DNA of 64,000 bases. Origin: Chloroflexota bacterium (lineage in GTDB: Bacteria; Chloroflexota; Anaerolineae; Anaerolineales; Villigracilaceae). Shown in pieces: positions 8,248 through 41,541 of the stretch (positions within the stretch are counted from its first letter, which is position 1; each line of letters opens with the position of its first letter). The DNA lies in assembly GCA_024434165.1 (NCBI GenBank), contig QMIW01000008.1, forward strand, positions 1 to 64,000, given 5' to 3'. The position numbers were made by a program, and so were the translations under genes. The notes beneath the pieces are model-generated. The model saw nothing but the letters and a program-made list of their open reading frames with translations, was not told the DNA's origin and made no database searches.

Positions 8248-8718
8248 ATGCCAACGAACTTCCTTACCAAAGAGGGTTTCGAAAAATTACAGGAGGAGCT
8301 CGATTATCTGCGCACCACCAAGCGGCAGGAAGTCGCCGCCCGGCTTCACGAAGCGATGGAGGGCGGGGAACTGATTGAGAACGCCGAATACGAAGCCGCC
8401 AAGAACGAGCAGGCATTTGTGGAAGGGCGTATCCAGGAACTGGAACTCCTGCTTGCCACCGCGCAAATCATCGAGGAAAACGGCAAATCCAAGAAGGCGG
8501 ACCTGATCCAGATCGGCTCCAAAGTAACCATCAAGGAAGGCAACTTCGATCCCGAAACGTTCACCATCGTGGGCGCGGCAGAAGCCAACCCGCGCGAGGG
8601 CAAGATTTCGAACGAGTCTCCCATTGGCAAAGCCATTTTGGGCCATAAAGTTGGCGACGTGGTGAAAGTGGAAACCCCCGGCGGCACGTACAACGTCAAG
8701 ATTATCAAAATCGGCTGA
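8248..8718 (+). CDS. greA: transcription elongation factor GreA
   Basis: A 156-residue cleavage factor that rescues backtracked RNA polymerase by stimulating cleavage of the nascent RNA. The N-terminal coiled-coil is intact (LTKEGFEKLQEELDYL to about residue 75), with the acidic tip residues in the ENAEYEAAKNEQ segment. The C-terminal FKBP-like domain ends SPIGKAILGHKVGDVVKVETP. Length and both domains are normal. AGCAGGAAAATAAC precedes the ATG. It has a strong promoter of its own and an imperfect terminator, so it is probably a single transcription unit or one read partly into lysS. Confidence 0.97.
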   Translation: MPTNFLTKEGFEKLQEELDYLRTTKRQEVAARLHEAMEGGELIENAEYEAAKNEQAFVEGRIQELELLLATAQIIEENGKSKKADLIQIGSKVTIKEGNFDPETFTIVGAAEANPREGKISNESPIGKAILGHKVGDVVKVETPGGTYNVKIIKIG

Positions 8719-8737
8719 CAAAGGACGCGACCCGAAT

Positions 8738-8773
8738 GCCCCGCGTCCAGTTTGCATTGGCGCGGGCTTTTTT
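8738..8773 (+). terminator. probable terminator after greA
   Basis: GCCCCGCG (8738-8745) pairs with CGCGGGC (8761-8767) with one bulged C and is followed by six T. The stem is imperfect but the T run is clear. Confidence 0.6.
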
Positions 8774-8777
8774 GTTA

Positions 8778-8826
8778 CCCTCCCCTCTGCGCCCCTCTCC
8801 CAGCGGGAGAGGGGGTGGGGTGAGGG
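8778..8826. repeat. palindromic dispersed repeat, copy 1 (CCCCTCTCCC family)
   Basis: The core CCCCTCTCCC (8792-8801), loop AGC, GGGAGAGGGG (8805-8814) is a perfect 10-bp stem, flanked by CCCTCCCC and GGGGTGAGGG. The same core and flanks recur at 12463-12518 inside the kynureninase gene. It lies between the greA terminator and lysS. Confidence 0.85.
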
Positions 8827-8841
8827 AATATAAGGAACATC

Positions 8842-10359
8842 ATGGCAGAATACAACTCCATCGAAAAAATCCGCTTGCAGAAGGTGGAGGAACTCCGCGC
8901 GGAAGGCGTGGAGCCGTACCCTACGCGGGCGAAGCGCACCCACACCAGCGTGCAAGCCATTGCTGAGTTTGAAGCGGGCGAAAACGAAAACCGCGAGGTA
9001 AAAGCCACGGTTGCCGGGCGGATCCGCTCGATGCGCCCCAAGGGCAAGTTGACCTTCGCGCACATCGAAGACGGCTACGGCAAACTCCAGTTGTTCTTCC
9101 GCGTCAACGAAGTGGGTGAGGACCGGCTTGCCTTTTTCAACCGCATGTTCGACCTGGGCGATTTCATCGAGGCGGCGGGCGTGATGATGCGCACCAAAGC
9201 GGGGGAGGTGTCGCTTCACGTTCACGATTTCAAACTGCTCGCCAAATCCATCACACCCCTGCCCGCCGATAAAGACGTGACCCTGGAAGACGGCACGGTC
9301 GTCCGTTACGCCTCGCTGGACGATCCCGAAATCCGCGCCCGCCAGCGCTATGCGGATTTGGCGGCGAACCCCGAAGTCCGCGAAACCTTCCGCAAGCGCG
9401 CAAAGGTGGTCAAATCCCTGCGCGATTTTCTCGATGGTAAGGGCTTCCTCGAAGTGGAAACGCCCATCCTGCAGCCGTTGTATGGCGGCGCGGCGGCGCG
9501 TCCGTTCGTGACGCATCACAACGAACTCGACCAGGATATGTACCTGCGAATTTCCTTCGAGTTGTATCTCAAACGCCTGCTCGTGGGCAACCTGGAAAAA
9601 GTGTATGAGATCGGGCGCGACTTCCGCAATGAAGGCGTCTCGTTCAAGCACAACCCTGAATTCACGCAACTCGAGTTCTATTGGGCGTACGCCGACTACC
9701 TGCAAGTGATGGAACTGACCGAGCAGATGGTCTCCTATACCGCCGAGCAGGTGACCGGCTCCACCAGGGTCAAATACGGCGAATACGAGTTGGAATTCAA
9801 GCCGCCGTGGAAGCGGCTGGAGATGCGGCAGGGCATCCTCGAAACCAGCGGCATTGACATCGCCGAACACAAAACCGCCGAGGCGCTGCTCAAAGCCATT
9901 CGCGAGAAGCATCCCAAGGCGGCGCCCGACCCGAAAGCCACGCGCGGCAAGTTGATTGATTTCCTGTTGAGCGAGTTCCTCGAACCGACGCTCATCCAGC
10001 CGACGTTTTTGTATAACTATCCGCGCGATATTTCGCCGCTGGCAAAGTCCATCCCCGGCGACCCGCTCATGGTCGAGCGTTTTGAAGGCTACGTGGCAGG
10101 CTTCGAGTTGTGCAACGCCTTCACCGAGTTGAACGATCCGCTCGACCAGGAACAGCGCTTCCTCGAAATGGGACGTGATTACGCCGCCGACGACGAAGAG
10201 AAGCACCCCATGGATGAAGATTACCTGCGCGCGATGCGTTATGGCATGCCCCCCAACGGCGGCTTTGGCATGGGCGTGGACCGCCTGGCAATGATCCTGA
10301 CGGATAAACATTCCATTCGTGAAGTATTGTTGTTCCCGGCATTGAGAAAAGAGGAATAA
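8842..10359 (+). CDS. lysS: lysyl-tRNA synthetase, class II
   Basis: A 505-residue enzyme that charges tRNA-Lys. The N-terminal OB-fold anticodon-binding domain (about 50-150, VAGRIRSMRPKGKLTFAHI) is followed by the class II catalytic core: motif 1 FLEVETPILQP, motif 2 (GRDFRNEGVSFKHNPEFTQLE, in part) and motif 3 GGFGMGVDRLAMILTD near the C-terminus. Length and order are normal for LysS. The start MAEYNSIEKIRLQK is preceded by AAGGAAC. A hairpin terminator follows at once. The enzyme is essential; nothing unusual is seen. Confidence 0.97.
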   Translation: MAEYNSIEKIRLQKVEELRAEGVEPYPTRAKRTHTSVQAIAEFEAGENENREVKATVAGRIRSMRPKGKLTFAHIEDGYGKLQLFFRVNEVGEDRLAFFNRMFDLGDFIEAAGVMMRTKAGEVSLHVHDFKLLAKSITPLPADKDVTLEDGTVVRYASLDDPEIRARQRYADLAANPEVRETFRKRAKVVKSLRDFLDGKGFLEVETPILQPLYGGAAARPFVTHHNELDQDMYLRISFELYLKRLLVGNLEKVYEIGRDFRNEGVSFKHNPEFTQLEFYWAYADYLQVMELTEQMVSYTAEQVTGSTRVKYGEYELEFKPPWKRLEMRQGILETSGIDIAEHKTAEALLKAIREKHPKAAPDPKATRGKLIDFLLSEFLEPTLIQPTFLYNYPRDISPLAKSIPGDPLMVERFEGYVAGFELCNAFTELNDPLDQEQRFLEMGRDYAADDEEKHPMDEDYLRAMRYGMPPNGGFGMGVDRLAMILTDKHSIREVLLFPALRKEE

Positions 10360-10364
10360 ACCCG

Positions 10365-10392
10365 GAGGCGGATGAAAGTCCGCCTCTTTTTT
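10365..10392 (+). terminator. Rho-independent terminator after lysS
   Basis: GAGGCGGA (10365-10372) pairs perfectly with TCCGCCTC (10379-10386), with a 6-nt loop, and is followed by six T. It starts six bases after the lysS stop codon. Confidence 0.9.
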
Positions 10393-10457
10393 ATCACCCG
10401 AATGTGGGACTCGGATTTTATGACCTTGGGGGGAGATGCTTCCAAGACCTCCTTCAC

Positions 10458-10507
10458 TATAATGGGTTTATTCATGCAGATGACATTCGCTCCGGCATTG
10501 TCATCTG
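10458..10507 (+). promoter_or_regulatory. -10 box and leader hairpin upstream of the membrane-protein gene
   Basis: TATAAT at 10458-10463 is followed by a leader carrying CAGATGACA (10477-10485), a 13-nt loop and TGTCATCTG (10499-10507), a perfect 9-bp stem. A GAGGAGAG ribosome site and ATG (10529) come next. The hairpin ends about 9 nt before the ribosome site and may affect expression. Confidence 0.5.
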
Positions 10508-11875: not shown

Positions 11876-12015
11876 GGCTCTTCCGTTTCTGGCGGGAAAG
11901 CCCTTACCACGAAGGGTCACAAAGGCACACAAAGGATGTTTTTTGGCTTTTTCCCTTTGTGCCCCTTTGTCTCCTTGGTGGTTGAAAAAAAGATTCCCGT
12001 TAAAAACGGTAGACC
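11876..12015. repeat. left arm of a 140-bp inverted repeat flanking kynU
   Basis: This stretch is the reverse complement of 13517-13656 with only about six differences (single substitutions and two 1-base indels). It contains GGTCACAAAGGCACACAAAGG and CCCTTTGTGCCCCTTTGTC segments. It fills most of the gap 11719-12030 and ends 16 bases before the kynureninase start codon. A -10-like TAAAAT follows it at 12019. Confidence 0.9.
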
Positions 12016-12030
12016 CGTTAAAATAAAAGG

Positions 12031-13359
12031 ATGGAAACCTTCTCCGCCTCCCGTGATTTCGCCCTCCAACTCGACAAGCAGGACTCACTCGCCTCCTTCC
12101 GGGAGGCGTTTGTCATCTCCGACCCCAGCCTGATCTACCTCGACGGCAATTCACTCGGCATGCTGCCCAAAGCCGCGCAGGAGAAAGCCAAACAGGTTGT
12201 GGACGAGCAATGGGGCAAAGATTTGATTCGCGGTTGGAACAAAGGCTGGTGGGAAGCCCCCTCCCGCGTGGGCGGCAAAATTGGTCAACTCATCGGCGCG
12301 GCGCCCGGTCAAACATTGGTCAGCGATACGGTTTCGGTCAACCTCTTCAAACTCGCCGCATCTGCGCTCACGCTTCAACCCAACCGTACTCGCATCATCA
12401 CCGATACCTTCAACTTCCCGTCCGACCTTTACATCTTGCAAGGGATCAATGATTTACTGTCTCCCTCACCCCGCCTTCGGCACCCCTCTCCCGCCGGGAG
12501 AGGGGACGGGGGTGAGGGCAAATACGAAATCATCCGCATCGGCGCAACGGACAACGACATCACGCCCGACATCGCCGCGCTCGAATCCGCCATCAACGAA
12601 GACACCGCGCTTGTCACGCTCTCGCACGTCGTTTTCAAAAGCGGCTATCTCTACGACATGCGGCGCATCACCGAACTCGCTCATCAGAAAGGCGCGCTCG
12701 TGCTTTGGGATTTGAGTCACTCTGTCGGCTCGGTCCCCATCCACCTCGACGAATGCGGCGCCGATCTCGCCATCGGCTGCACCTACAAATATCTCAACGG
12801 CGGTCCCGGCGCGCCCGCGTTTCTCTACATCAACAAAAAAATCCAGGAAAAACTATCCTCGCCCATCTGGGGCTGGTGGGGTCAAAAAAATCCTTTCGAC
12901 TTCGACCTCGAATACACCCCCGCCCCCGGCGCGCAGCGTTTTCTCGCTGGCACACAGCCGATGATTTCCCTGCTCACGATGGAAGCCGCCCTCGAACCGG
13001 CTCTGCAAGCGGGCATGGAAGCCATCCGCGAAAAATCCATCCTGATGACCGAATACGCCTCTTTCCTGACCGAGAATTGGCTCGCCCCCTTCGGCTTTTC
13101 CCTCGGCTCCCCGCTTGACTCTGCCAGACGCGGCTCGCACATCTCCATCCGCCACGCAGACGGCTACCGCATCAACCGCGCCCTGATCGAAGAGATGAAC
13201 GTCATCCCCGACTTCCGTGCGCCCGACAACATCCGCCTCGGCTTCGCGCCGTTGTATATTTCATTTGCAGACATCTGGGAAGGCTTCGACCGCATCCGCC
13301 GCGTGATGGAAGAGAAGCGGCACGAAAAATATCCCCAGCAAAAATTGACAGTTACCTGA
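12031..13359 (+). CDS. kynU: kynureninase
   Basis: A 442-residue PLP enzyme that cleaves kynurenine or 3-hydroxykynurenine to (hydroxy)anthranilate and alanine. The fold-type I features are present: LYLDGNSLG-like start (YLDGNSLGMLP, 36-46), WDLSHSVG with the PLP-ring Asp at 227, and the Schiff-base Lys at 253 in CTYKYLNGGPG. TAAAAT ends 6 nt before the ATG, so the message may be leaderless. No other kynurenine-pathway gene is in the window. Oddly, residues about 143-163 (SPSPRLRHPSPAGRGDGGEG) are encoded by a palindromic dispersed repeat inserted in frame, and the whole gene is bracketed by inverted repeats. The product is probably still active, since the insert falls in a surface loop region. 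Confidence 0.93.
   Translation: METFSASRDFALQLDKQDSLASFREAFVISDPSLIYLDGNSLGMLPKAAQEKAKQVVDEQWGKDLIRGWNKGWWEAPSRVGGKIGQLIGAAPGQTLVSDTVSVNLFKLAASALTLQPNRTRIITDTFNFPSDLYILQGINDLLSPSPRLRHPSPAGRGDGGEGKYEIIRIGATDNDITPDIAALESAINEDTALVTLSHVVFKSGYLYDMRRITELAHQKGALVLWDLSHSVGSVPIHLDECGADLAIGCTYKYLNGGPGAPAFLYINKKIQEKLSSPIWGWWGQKNPFDFDLEYTPAPGAQRFLAGTQPMISLLTMEAALEPALQAGMEAIREKSILMTEYASFLTENWLAPFGFSLGSPLDSARRGSHISIRHADGYRINRALIEEMNVIPDFRAPDNIRLGFAPLYISFADIWEGFDRIRRVMEEKRHEKYPQQKLTVT
12463..12518. repeat. palindromic dispersed repeat, copy 2, in frame inside kynU
   Basis: The core CCCCTCTCCC (12483-12492), loop GCC, GGGAGAGGGG (12496-12505) is identical in stem to the copy at 8792-8814. The outer CCCTCACCCC and GGGGGTGAGGG also pair. 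It interrupts no frame and adds about 20 residues to kynureninase. Confidence 0.9.
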
Positions 13360-13516: not shown

Positions 13517-13656
13517 GGTCTACCGTTTTTAACGGGAATCTTTTTTCAACCACCCAGGAGACAAAGGGGCACAAAGGGAAAAAGCCCCAAAAACATCCTT
13601 TGTGCGCCTTTGTGACCCTTCGTGGTAAGGGTTTTCCCGCCAGAAACGGAAGAGCC
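13517..13656. repeat. right arm of the 140-bp inverted repeat flanking kynU
   Basis: Inverted partner of 11876-12015, about 95 percent identical by eye. The gap 13360-13802 holds this arm; I see no gene in the remaining bases, only a -10-like TAGAAT at 13774-13779 for the next gene. Confidence 0.9.
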
Positions 13657-24709: not shown

Positions 24710-25126
24710 CTATCCCTCAAAATACTCCCTCATCGGCTTGAAGTAAAAATCTTCCCAGCCTTGTTTGTAACTTTCCGCCTGACCCTCCGGGATGTTTGTG
24801 TGAATCAGTGTCACCTTTGTCATTGCGAGACGGCGGTCGCCCGTCGCAGCAATCTCCTCTTCCAATAGAATCTCCACCAGCGAGTCGTCCGCCTCTTCAG
24901 GGAATTCGCTCGTGCGCCAGAGCTGGAGAATGCGTTTGTTTTCCTCCAATTCCAAAAACGTCCCCCAGATGTAGCCTTCCCAGGCAGTGAAGTCGCCGTC
25001 CTCGCGCCCGTCCACTTTGGCGGGGCTGCCGGTCATTTGCGTATGTCCCTGTGTGGAAAGCCAGGCTTTGTAGATATTTTCTGCGCTGGTATTGAAGGCT
25101 GCTGTGAGGGTGACTTCGTTATTCAT
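24710..25126 (-). CDS. SRPBCC (AHSA1-like) protein
   Basis: A 138-residue START/Bet v1-like domain of the Hsp90-ATPase-activator homology group. The typical strands are VTLTAAFNTSAENIYKAWL, WGTFLELEENKRILQLWR and the C-terminal VTLIHTNIPEGQAESYKQGWEDFYFKPM helix. These proteins bind hydrophobic ligands or assist folding; the role is unknown. The stretch EEEIAATGDRRLAMTK departs from the family, where a short GGT-type turn is normal, and is encoded by a palindromic dispersed repeat (24819-24856). Confidence 0.8.
   Translation of the reverse strand: MNNEVTLTAAFNTSAENIYKAWLSTQGHTQMTGSPAKVDGREDGDFTAWEGYIWGTFLELEENKRILQLWRTSEFPEEADDSLVEILLEEEIAATGDRRLAMTKVTLIHTNIPEGQAESYKQGWEDFYFKPMREYFEG
24819..24856. 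repeat. palindromic CATTGCGAG-type repeat inside the AHSA1-like gene
   Basis: GTCATTGCGAGACGGC at one end and GCAGCAATCTC at the other match the ends of a dispersed palindromic element; GTCATTGCGAG also begins the hairpin at 41501-41541. It keeps the reading frame open and adds about ten residues. Confidence 0.5.
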
Positions 25127-41500: not shown

Positions 41501-41541
41501 TGTCATTGCGAGTGGCGCTGAAAGCGCCACTCGCAATGACA
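41501..41541. repeat. perfect 19-bp hairpin repeat between ygeW and carbamate kinase
   Basis: TGTCATTGCGAGTGGCGCT (41501-41519), loop GAA and its exact complement to 41541. The GTCATTGCGAG end is shared with the repeat at 24819. There is no T run, so it may be an RNA-processing hairpin within the operon rather than a terminator. Confidence 0.8.

Follow-up and report, generated by a model that had tools for sequence, protein, structure and literature searches.

A predicted surface loop of kynureninase, the product of kynU, has been filled time and again with short dispersed repeats that belong to at least four unrelated families, and it is most likely a site where small mobile DNA can land repeatedly and without harm, if the enzyme remains active. 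The case that we describe lies in the genome of a member of the Chloroflexota (Anaerolineales, family Villigracilaceae), within a stretch of 64,000 nucleotides that is referred to here as the window (contig QMIW01000008.1, positions 1 to 64,000). To judge from the literature that could be searched, two features are new: a large share of the copies of one repeat, the triplex motif TM, lies within genes, and a single loop has been filled repeatedly by repeats that are not related. In-frame palindromic repeats have so far been held mainly to be a peculiarity of Rickettsia, together with scattered cases of REP sequences; in the present genome, some two dozen conserved genes contain, in frame, an element that in Escherichia coli is reported to be strictly intergenic. 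With four or more unrelated families hitting one enzyme loop independently, nature has provided many replicates, which bear on how short repeats move, how far the harmless invasion of proteins can extend and whether new protein segments arise from such inserts.

The palindrome within kynU

The kynU gene (12031–13359, forward strand) encodes an intact kynureninase of 442 amino acids. Its reading frame is open throughout, and the product scores 271 bits against TIGR01814 (cut-off 246) and contains the KYNU_C and Aminotran_5 domains. The PLP lysine motif TYKYLNGGPG is conserved, and the catalytic motifs form invariant columns among the kynU homologues. The original prediction placed a palindromic repeat in frame within this gene, and the complementarity of the arms, the fold and the open frame all agree with it. 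This TM-type repeat occupies 12463–12518 on the forward strand, where it encodes residues about 145–163 (PSPRLRHPSPAGRGDGGEG) and reads CCCTCACCCC gccttcggca CCCCTCTCCC gcc GGGAGAGGGG acg GGGGTGAGGG. Complementarity is complete both in the outer arms (12463–12472 and 12509–12518, 10 of 10 positions) and in the inner arms (12483–12493 and 12495–12505, 11 of 11). The inner arms make up the core hairpin CCCCTCTCCCG-C-CGGGAGAGGGG (12483–12505, forward strand), which by arm complementarity corresponds to strands 1 and 2 of a triplex motif; the third arm, GGGGTGAGGG (12509–12518, forward strand), pairs also with 12463–12472. When folded as single-stranded DNA, in a computation of duplex hairpins, the palindrome is far stabler than its shuffles (z -4.9).

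The distance from anchor to anchor across the insert is 32 residues, compared with 14 in relatives that lack it, and the resulting 18 extra residues make the earlier estimate of about 20 a fair one. In an AlphaFold model made from 52 homologues, which is confident overall (mean pLDDT 89), helix 130–143 and strand 166–170 border the insert, and residues 154–160 are the sole stretch with a pLDDT below 50; the insert is accordingly modelled as a disordered surface loop. The gene itself is flanked on both sides by imperfect CACAAAGG/CCTTTGTG palindromes (11904–11984 and 13560–13640). The first of these is approximately the reverse complement of the second, and the sequence that surrounds them matches too.

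The same stem element had been noted in the gap between greA (8248–8718) and lysS (8842–10359), and a common half-motif and inner stem bear this out. The intergenic copy (8778–8826, forward strand; fold z -3.4) has a perfect inner stem of 10 bp and the same half, GGGAGAGGGG-N-GGGGTGAGGG, as the copy in kynU; this half-motif occurs twice in the window, where 0.00 occurrences are expected. The window also contains repeats of other kinds. A gene with an AHSA1 domain (PF08327; 24713–25216, reverse strand) includes, at about 24819–24856, part of a further dispersed repeat (GTCATTGCGAG...GCAATCTCCTC), which is in frame and translated as EEIAATGDRRLAM; this segment is likely a second in-frame repeat of the window. 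A perfect GTCATTGCGAGTGGCGC...GCGCCACTCGCAATGAC palindrome is located directly between two genes at 41502–41540.

Identity and dispersal of the repeat

By sequence, the kynU repeat is classed as a member of the family of intrastrand triplex motifs termed TM (earlier PIT; Holder et al. 2015, PMC4666352), an E. coli copy of which reads, for example, CCCTCTCCCTGTGGGAGAGGGCCGGGGTGAGGGC. Set against Table 1 of that paper, the interval 12483–12518 (CCCCTCTCCC-GCC-GGGAGAGGGG-ACG-GGGGTGAGGG) comprises a pyrimidine arm, a complementary purine arm and a purine third arm, joined by short loops. TM is known from Enterobacteria and Cyanobacteria. The genome of E. coli K-12 has 23 copies, every one of them intergenic, and no link to known mobile elements was reported (PMC4666352). 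In Enterobacter sp. 638, a palindrome of the form CCCTCTCCCXX(X)GGGAGAGGG was recorded 100 times (PMC2869309). A scan of the elements against Rfam returned no credible family.

The source genome is a metagenome-type assembly of 4.4 Mb in 173 contigs, and the repetitive nature of the element, first seen from its two copies in the window, holds throughout it. The core CTCTCCCN(2-10)GGGAGAG is found at 148 places (none with the reversed pattern used as a control), and the strict three-arm motif CCCTCTCCC-GGGAGAGGG-GGGTGAGGG gives 50 exact matches at 46 sites, again with a control count of 0. Across the phylum, the three-arm motif is present in 130 of the 301 genomes sampled. The maximum, 975 exact copies, is reached in a genome of 4.5 Mb (G430). 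A longer element of 157 bp, with a TM core inside, occurs in many copies that are 95–99% identical (L001:1425–1581, with others in L002, L003, L005–L007, L010 and L013), many of them at contig ends, and is likely a recently active MITE.

For a census of copies within genes, 44 of the 46 TM sites were taken, the open reading frames that span them were listed and the longest were scanned against Pfam. As judged from Pfam domain positions and a reading of the flanking motifs, rather than from an aligned empty homologue for each site, about 25 of the 44 sites (in 24 genes) are in frame inside conserved genes, as had been foreseen for the copy in kynU. Spanning frames that had no Pfam support were left out of this gene count; L155 and L186:3043-4140, in which the repeat lies upstream of the start codon, were excluded, and L165 and L183 are uncertain. 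The proteins that bear the repeat include GatB, a PurQ-type amidotransferase, shikimate kinase/dehydroquinate synthase, indole-glycerol-phosphate synthase (trpC), a valyl-type tRNA synthetase (valS), cobalamin-dependent methionine synthase (metH, with two copies), the ribonucleotide reductase small chain, CinA, a protein of the lipoate ligase type, CODH/ACS beta, Cas4, Cas6, HsdS and several ABC ATPases, in addition to kynureninase. The copies are read in several frames and lie in both orientations, so that no single 'coding' frame of TM is needed. The resulting peptides are SPSPxGRGxxGEG, PLPxGEGxGVR, LTPxPSPxGRG and LSxWERG, and annotators should be warned that the first two, where they recur, are translated repeats.

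Recurrent filling of the kynU loop

Homologues of kynU were gathered from genus, family and named genomes, and the family set comprises 79 that are non-redundant. Alignment with these close kynureninases confirms the insert: 39 of the 79 have at least four additional residues, in every case after residue 144, and the other 40 are empty. Elsewhere in the kynU domain, an insert of at least four residues occurs in one homologue only, and differences of 4 residues are seen in two rows at another spot. The anchor-to-anchor length is exactly 14 residues in 40 of 40 empty homologues, none of which has a small indel of 1–3 residues in the loop, and ranges from 19 to 78 residues in the filled ones. In none of the selected homologues does a stop interrupt the frame across the insert, and this holds also for those from near-complete genomes of few contigs. 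Residues like those of the insert, which their presence in distant species would have marked as ancestral, are missing from the enzymes of Pseudomonas (1qz9) and Exiguobacterium as well as from half of the close relatives.

The dispersed families found at the loop, of which there are at least four, are unrelated to one another: TM, a GG palindrome (GGTCGAG...CGAGACC), a ACGCAATACG repeat and a CGCAAAGAACGCGAAGG-type repeat; a few inserts are unassigned. The GG palindrome (GGTGGTCGAGTA...TATCGAGACCACC) is inserted in both orientations, and in some homologues (L024, L041 and L075) its loop contains another copy of it; 50 of the 57 genomes of the genus have this palindrome, at up to 117 copies. 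In genus genomes such as G110 and G117, its outer arms are constant (GGTCGAGTAG / CGTATCGAGACC) and its inner hairpin is hypervariable yet self-complementary. The ACGCAATACG repeat fills the loop in L068 and L102 and has 88 matches in genome G080, the kynU site among them. The evidence of dispersal is weaker for the insert of L119, a CGCAAAGAACGCGAAGG...CCTTCGCGGTT / CGCAAAGAACGCGAAGG...CTTCGCGGTT repeat that is matched in part at other places in G024 and G000. One further homologue (L053:2998-4458) has an insert that consists of a four-unit tandem array (PSPSLEEGRGGGT), which adds 64 residues in frame.

Filled and empty genes are scattered over the kynU gene tree, which was built without the columns of the insert site. 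At least 16 changes between the empty and filled states are required, 12 of which are forced by strongly supported (starred) branches, and the count is 27 changes for six states. A tree constrained to group all sequences that carry TM is worse by 563 log-likelihood units. The left junctions of the TM inserts differ (LLSPSP, LDAESPSP and LSNASPSP), as expected for separate insertion events. Some filled relatives have similar inserts and the pattern is therefore partly inherited; local recombination between kynU genes or lineages could also move inserts without new insertion events.

Recurrently filled sites in other genes

In purQ, the source genome has TM at a place where four relatives have a complete GTCATTGCGAG...CTCGCAATGAC palindrome and a fifth has a remnant of it, and where further relatives have other low-complexity segments. 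TM-type inserts of varying sequence are found at one site of gatB and at one site of trpC in several members of the genus, while other members are empty. The relatives of GatB have a dimeric form in common, which indicates that the GatB pattern is partly inherited. Some relatives seemed to have stops in gatB, but these lie only upstream of the start codon and were dismissed. In ValS, TM recurs at one site, near residue 287, which is filled in the source genome too; the copy at residue 688, which matches the exact pattern, showed no recurrence among relatives and is not a TM hotspot.

Origin of the inserts

We consider it probable that these patterns arise from a high flux of short repeats that is filtered for permissive loops. 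Several unrelated families of repeats would be arriving continually across the genome, and copies within genes would survive only where the protein tolerates about 5–65 extra residues, so that the same few loops are filled repeatedly. In kynureninase, a TM/PIT-type copy, short, non-coding and of high copy number, would have landed in the surface loop between the helix and strand named above. It would have been retained with a net length that is a multiple of three, a frame free of stops and a disordered loop rich in Pro, Gly and Ser that spares the fold. The enzyme presumably stays active with its insert, and the hotspot would have been made by selection against other sites and not by targeting. 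Insertion itself appears to take the place of a few base pairs and to leave no target duplication, perhaps through events of the single-strand or template-switch type and not by way of a dedicated transposase. When judged by the criteria used for MITEs, the repeat has inverted ends, and the pairs of filled and empty genes that were compared, which are diverged, show a few base pairs replaced and no visible target duplication.

Targeting of the site, in which a transposase or some feature of the DNA or its replication guides various repeats to one spot of a few base pairs and the hotspot reflects insertion chemistry, is distinctly unlikely. It would account for the identical loop length of every empty homologue and for the absence of ordinary indels where repeat insertions are common; a soft loop alone would give indels of 1–3 residues in empty homologues, and as none were seen, there is room left for a preference at the DNA level. 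However, the ends of the four families are unrelated, the boundaries vary by about 9 bp, the filler at the junctions is varied, and the sites in purQ, gatB and trpC have no obvious target in common with kynU. A search for a RAYT-type carrier found three Y1_Tnp genes in the genome, but none has a TM or GG motif within its 1.5 kb flanks. Taken with the differing boundaries and the lack of visible target duplication, this argues against one targeting enzyme. Selection for the inserts, as a loop useful for interaction, stability or translation pausing in kynureninase and other enzymes, would fit the persistence of filled forms across many species and many housekeeping genes. We regard it as very unlikely, since half of the kynU homologues do without an insert, the inserted peptides are wholly different in sequence and in length, and the loop is predicted to be disordered.

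A single ancestral insertion, inherited vertically and followed by divergence and partial loss, with decay and gene conversion as the source of variety, is highly improbable. The nearest relative (L080, 91% identical) does have a similar insert, and the clades L038/L043 and L025/L032 share theirs, but unrelated families at the same site cannot share one ancestral insert, starred branches place empty genes within groups of filled ones, and a single origin even of the TM inserts is rejected by the AU test (p-AU 7.8e-29). It is scarcely credible that the inserts are artefacts of assembly or annotation or chance GC-rich stretches, despite the fragmented, metagenome-type nature of the source assembly and the occurrence of long spurious antisense frames (for example, across 8290–10467): inserts recur at this loop in dozens of independent assemblies, some of them in 1–4 contigs (G008, G058 and G126), and the palindrome controls are zero. 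Beyond the filtered flux that we favour, there is some, rather small, chance that repeats are delivered to or retained at defined protein loops often enough to constitute a general process of loop diversification, in which one loop archives successive invasions.

Comparison with known repeat systems

The kynU repeat resembles TM/PIT in its organization (CCCTCTCCC-N3-GGGAGAGGG-N2/3-GGGTGAGGG) and in having many copies on both strands, often as inverted pairs. The TM/PIT copies of E. coli are always intergenic as reported, whereas here a large share is in frame within conserved genes, and the kynU copy, unlike TM/PIT, bears an additional left arm, CCCTCACCCC.

The original prediction likened the repeat to the Rickettsia palindromic elements (RPE) described by Ogata, Claverie and co-workers, which are 105–146 bp in length (PMC2229807; PMC3733652). 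The likeness stands for behaviour, with a dispersed repeat in frame in a protein gene: kynU and about 24 other in-gene copies are short palindromes within genes for conserved proteins, translatable and apparently tolerated. It does not extend to sequence, which is that of TM/PIT; the element is 56 bp long, is unrelated in sequence to RPE and resides in a member of the Anaerolineales rather than in Rickettsia. In contrast to RPE, several frames and both orientations are used, and a single loop is refilled by several unrelated families.

Intragenic REPs, which are tagged by GTAG or CGTC, include the recB gene of two Xanthomonas species, where different REPs occupy approximately the same site (Di Nocera et al. 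2013, PMC3733652). The likeness lies in the presence of repeats within open reading frames and in this single recB case of differing repeats at about one site. The TM copy in kynU, however, ends in CCCTCACCCC / GGGGTGAGGG and has no GTAG/CGTC tag, and no transposase of the REP-associated kind was observed beside it. Recurrence at the kynU loop involves at least four families in dozens of genomes. The element acts like RPE and intragenic REPs, yet belongs to neither by sequence, size or tag.
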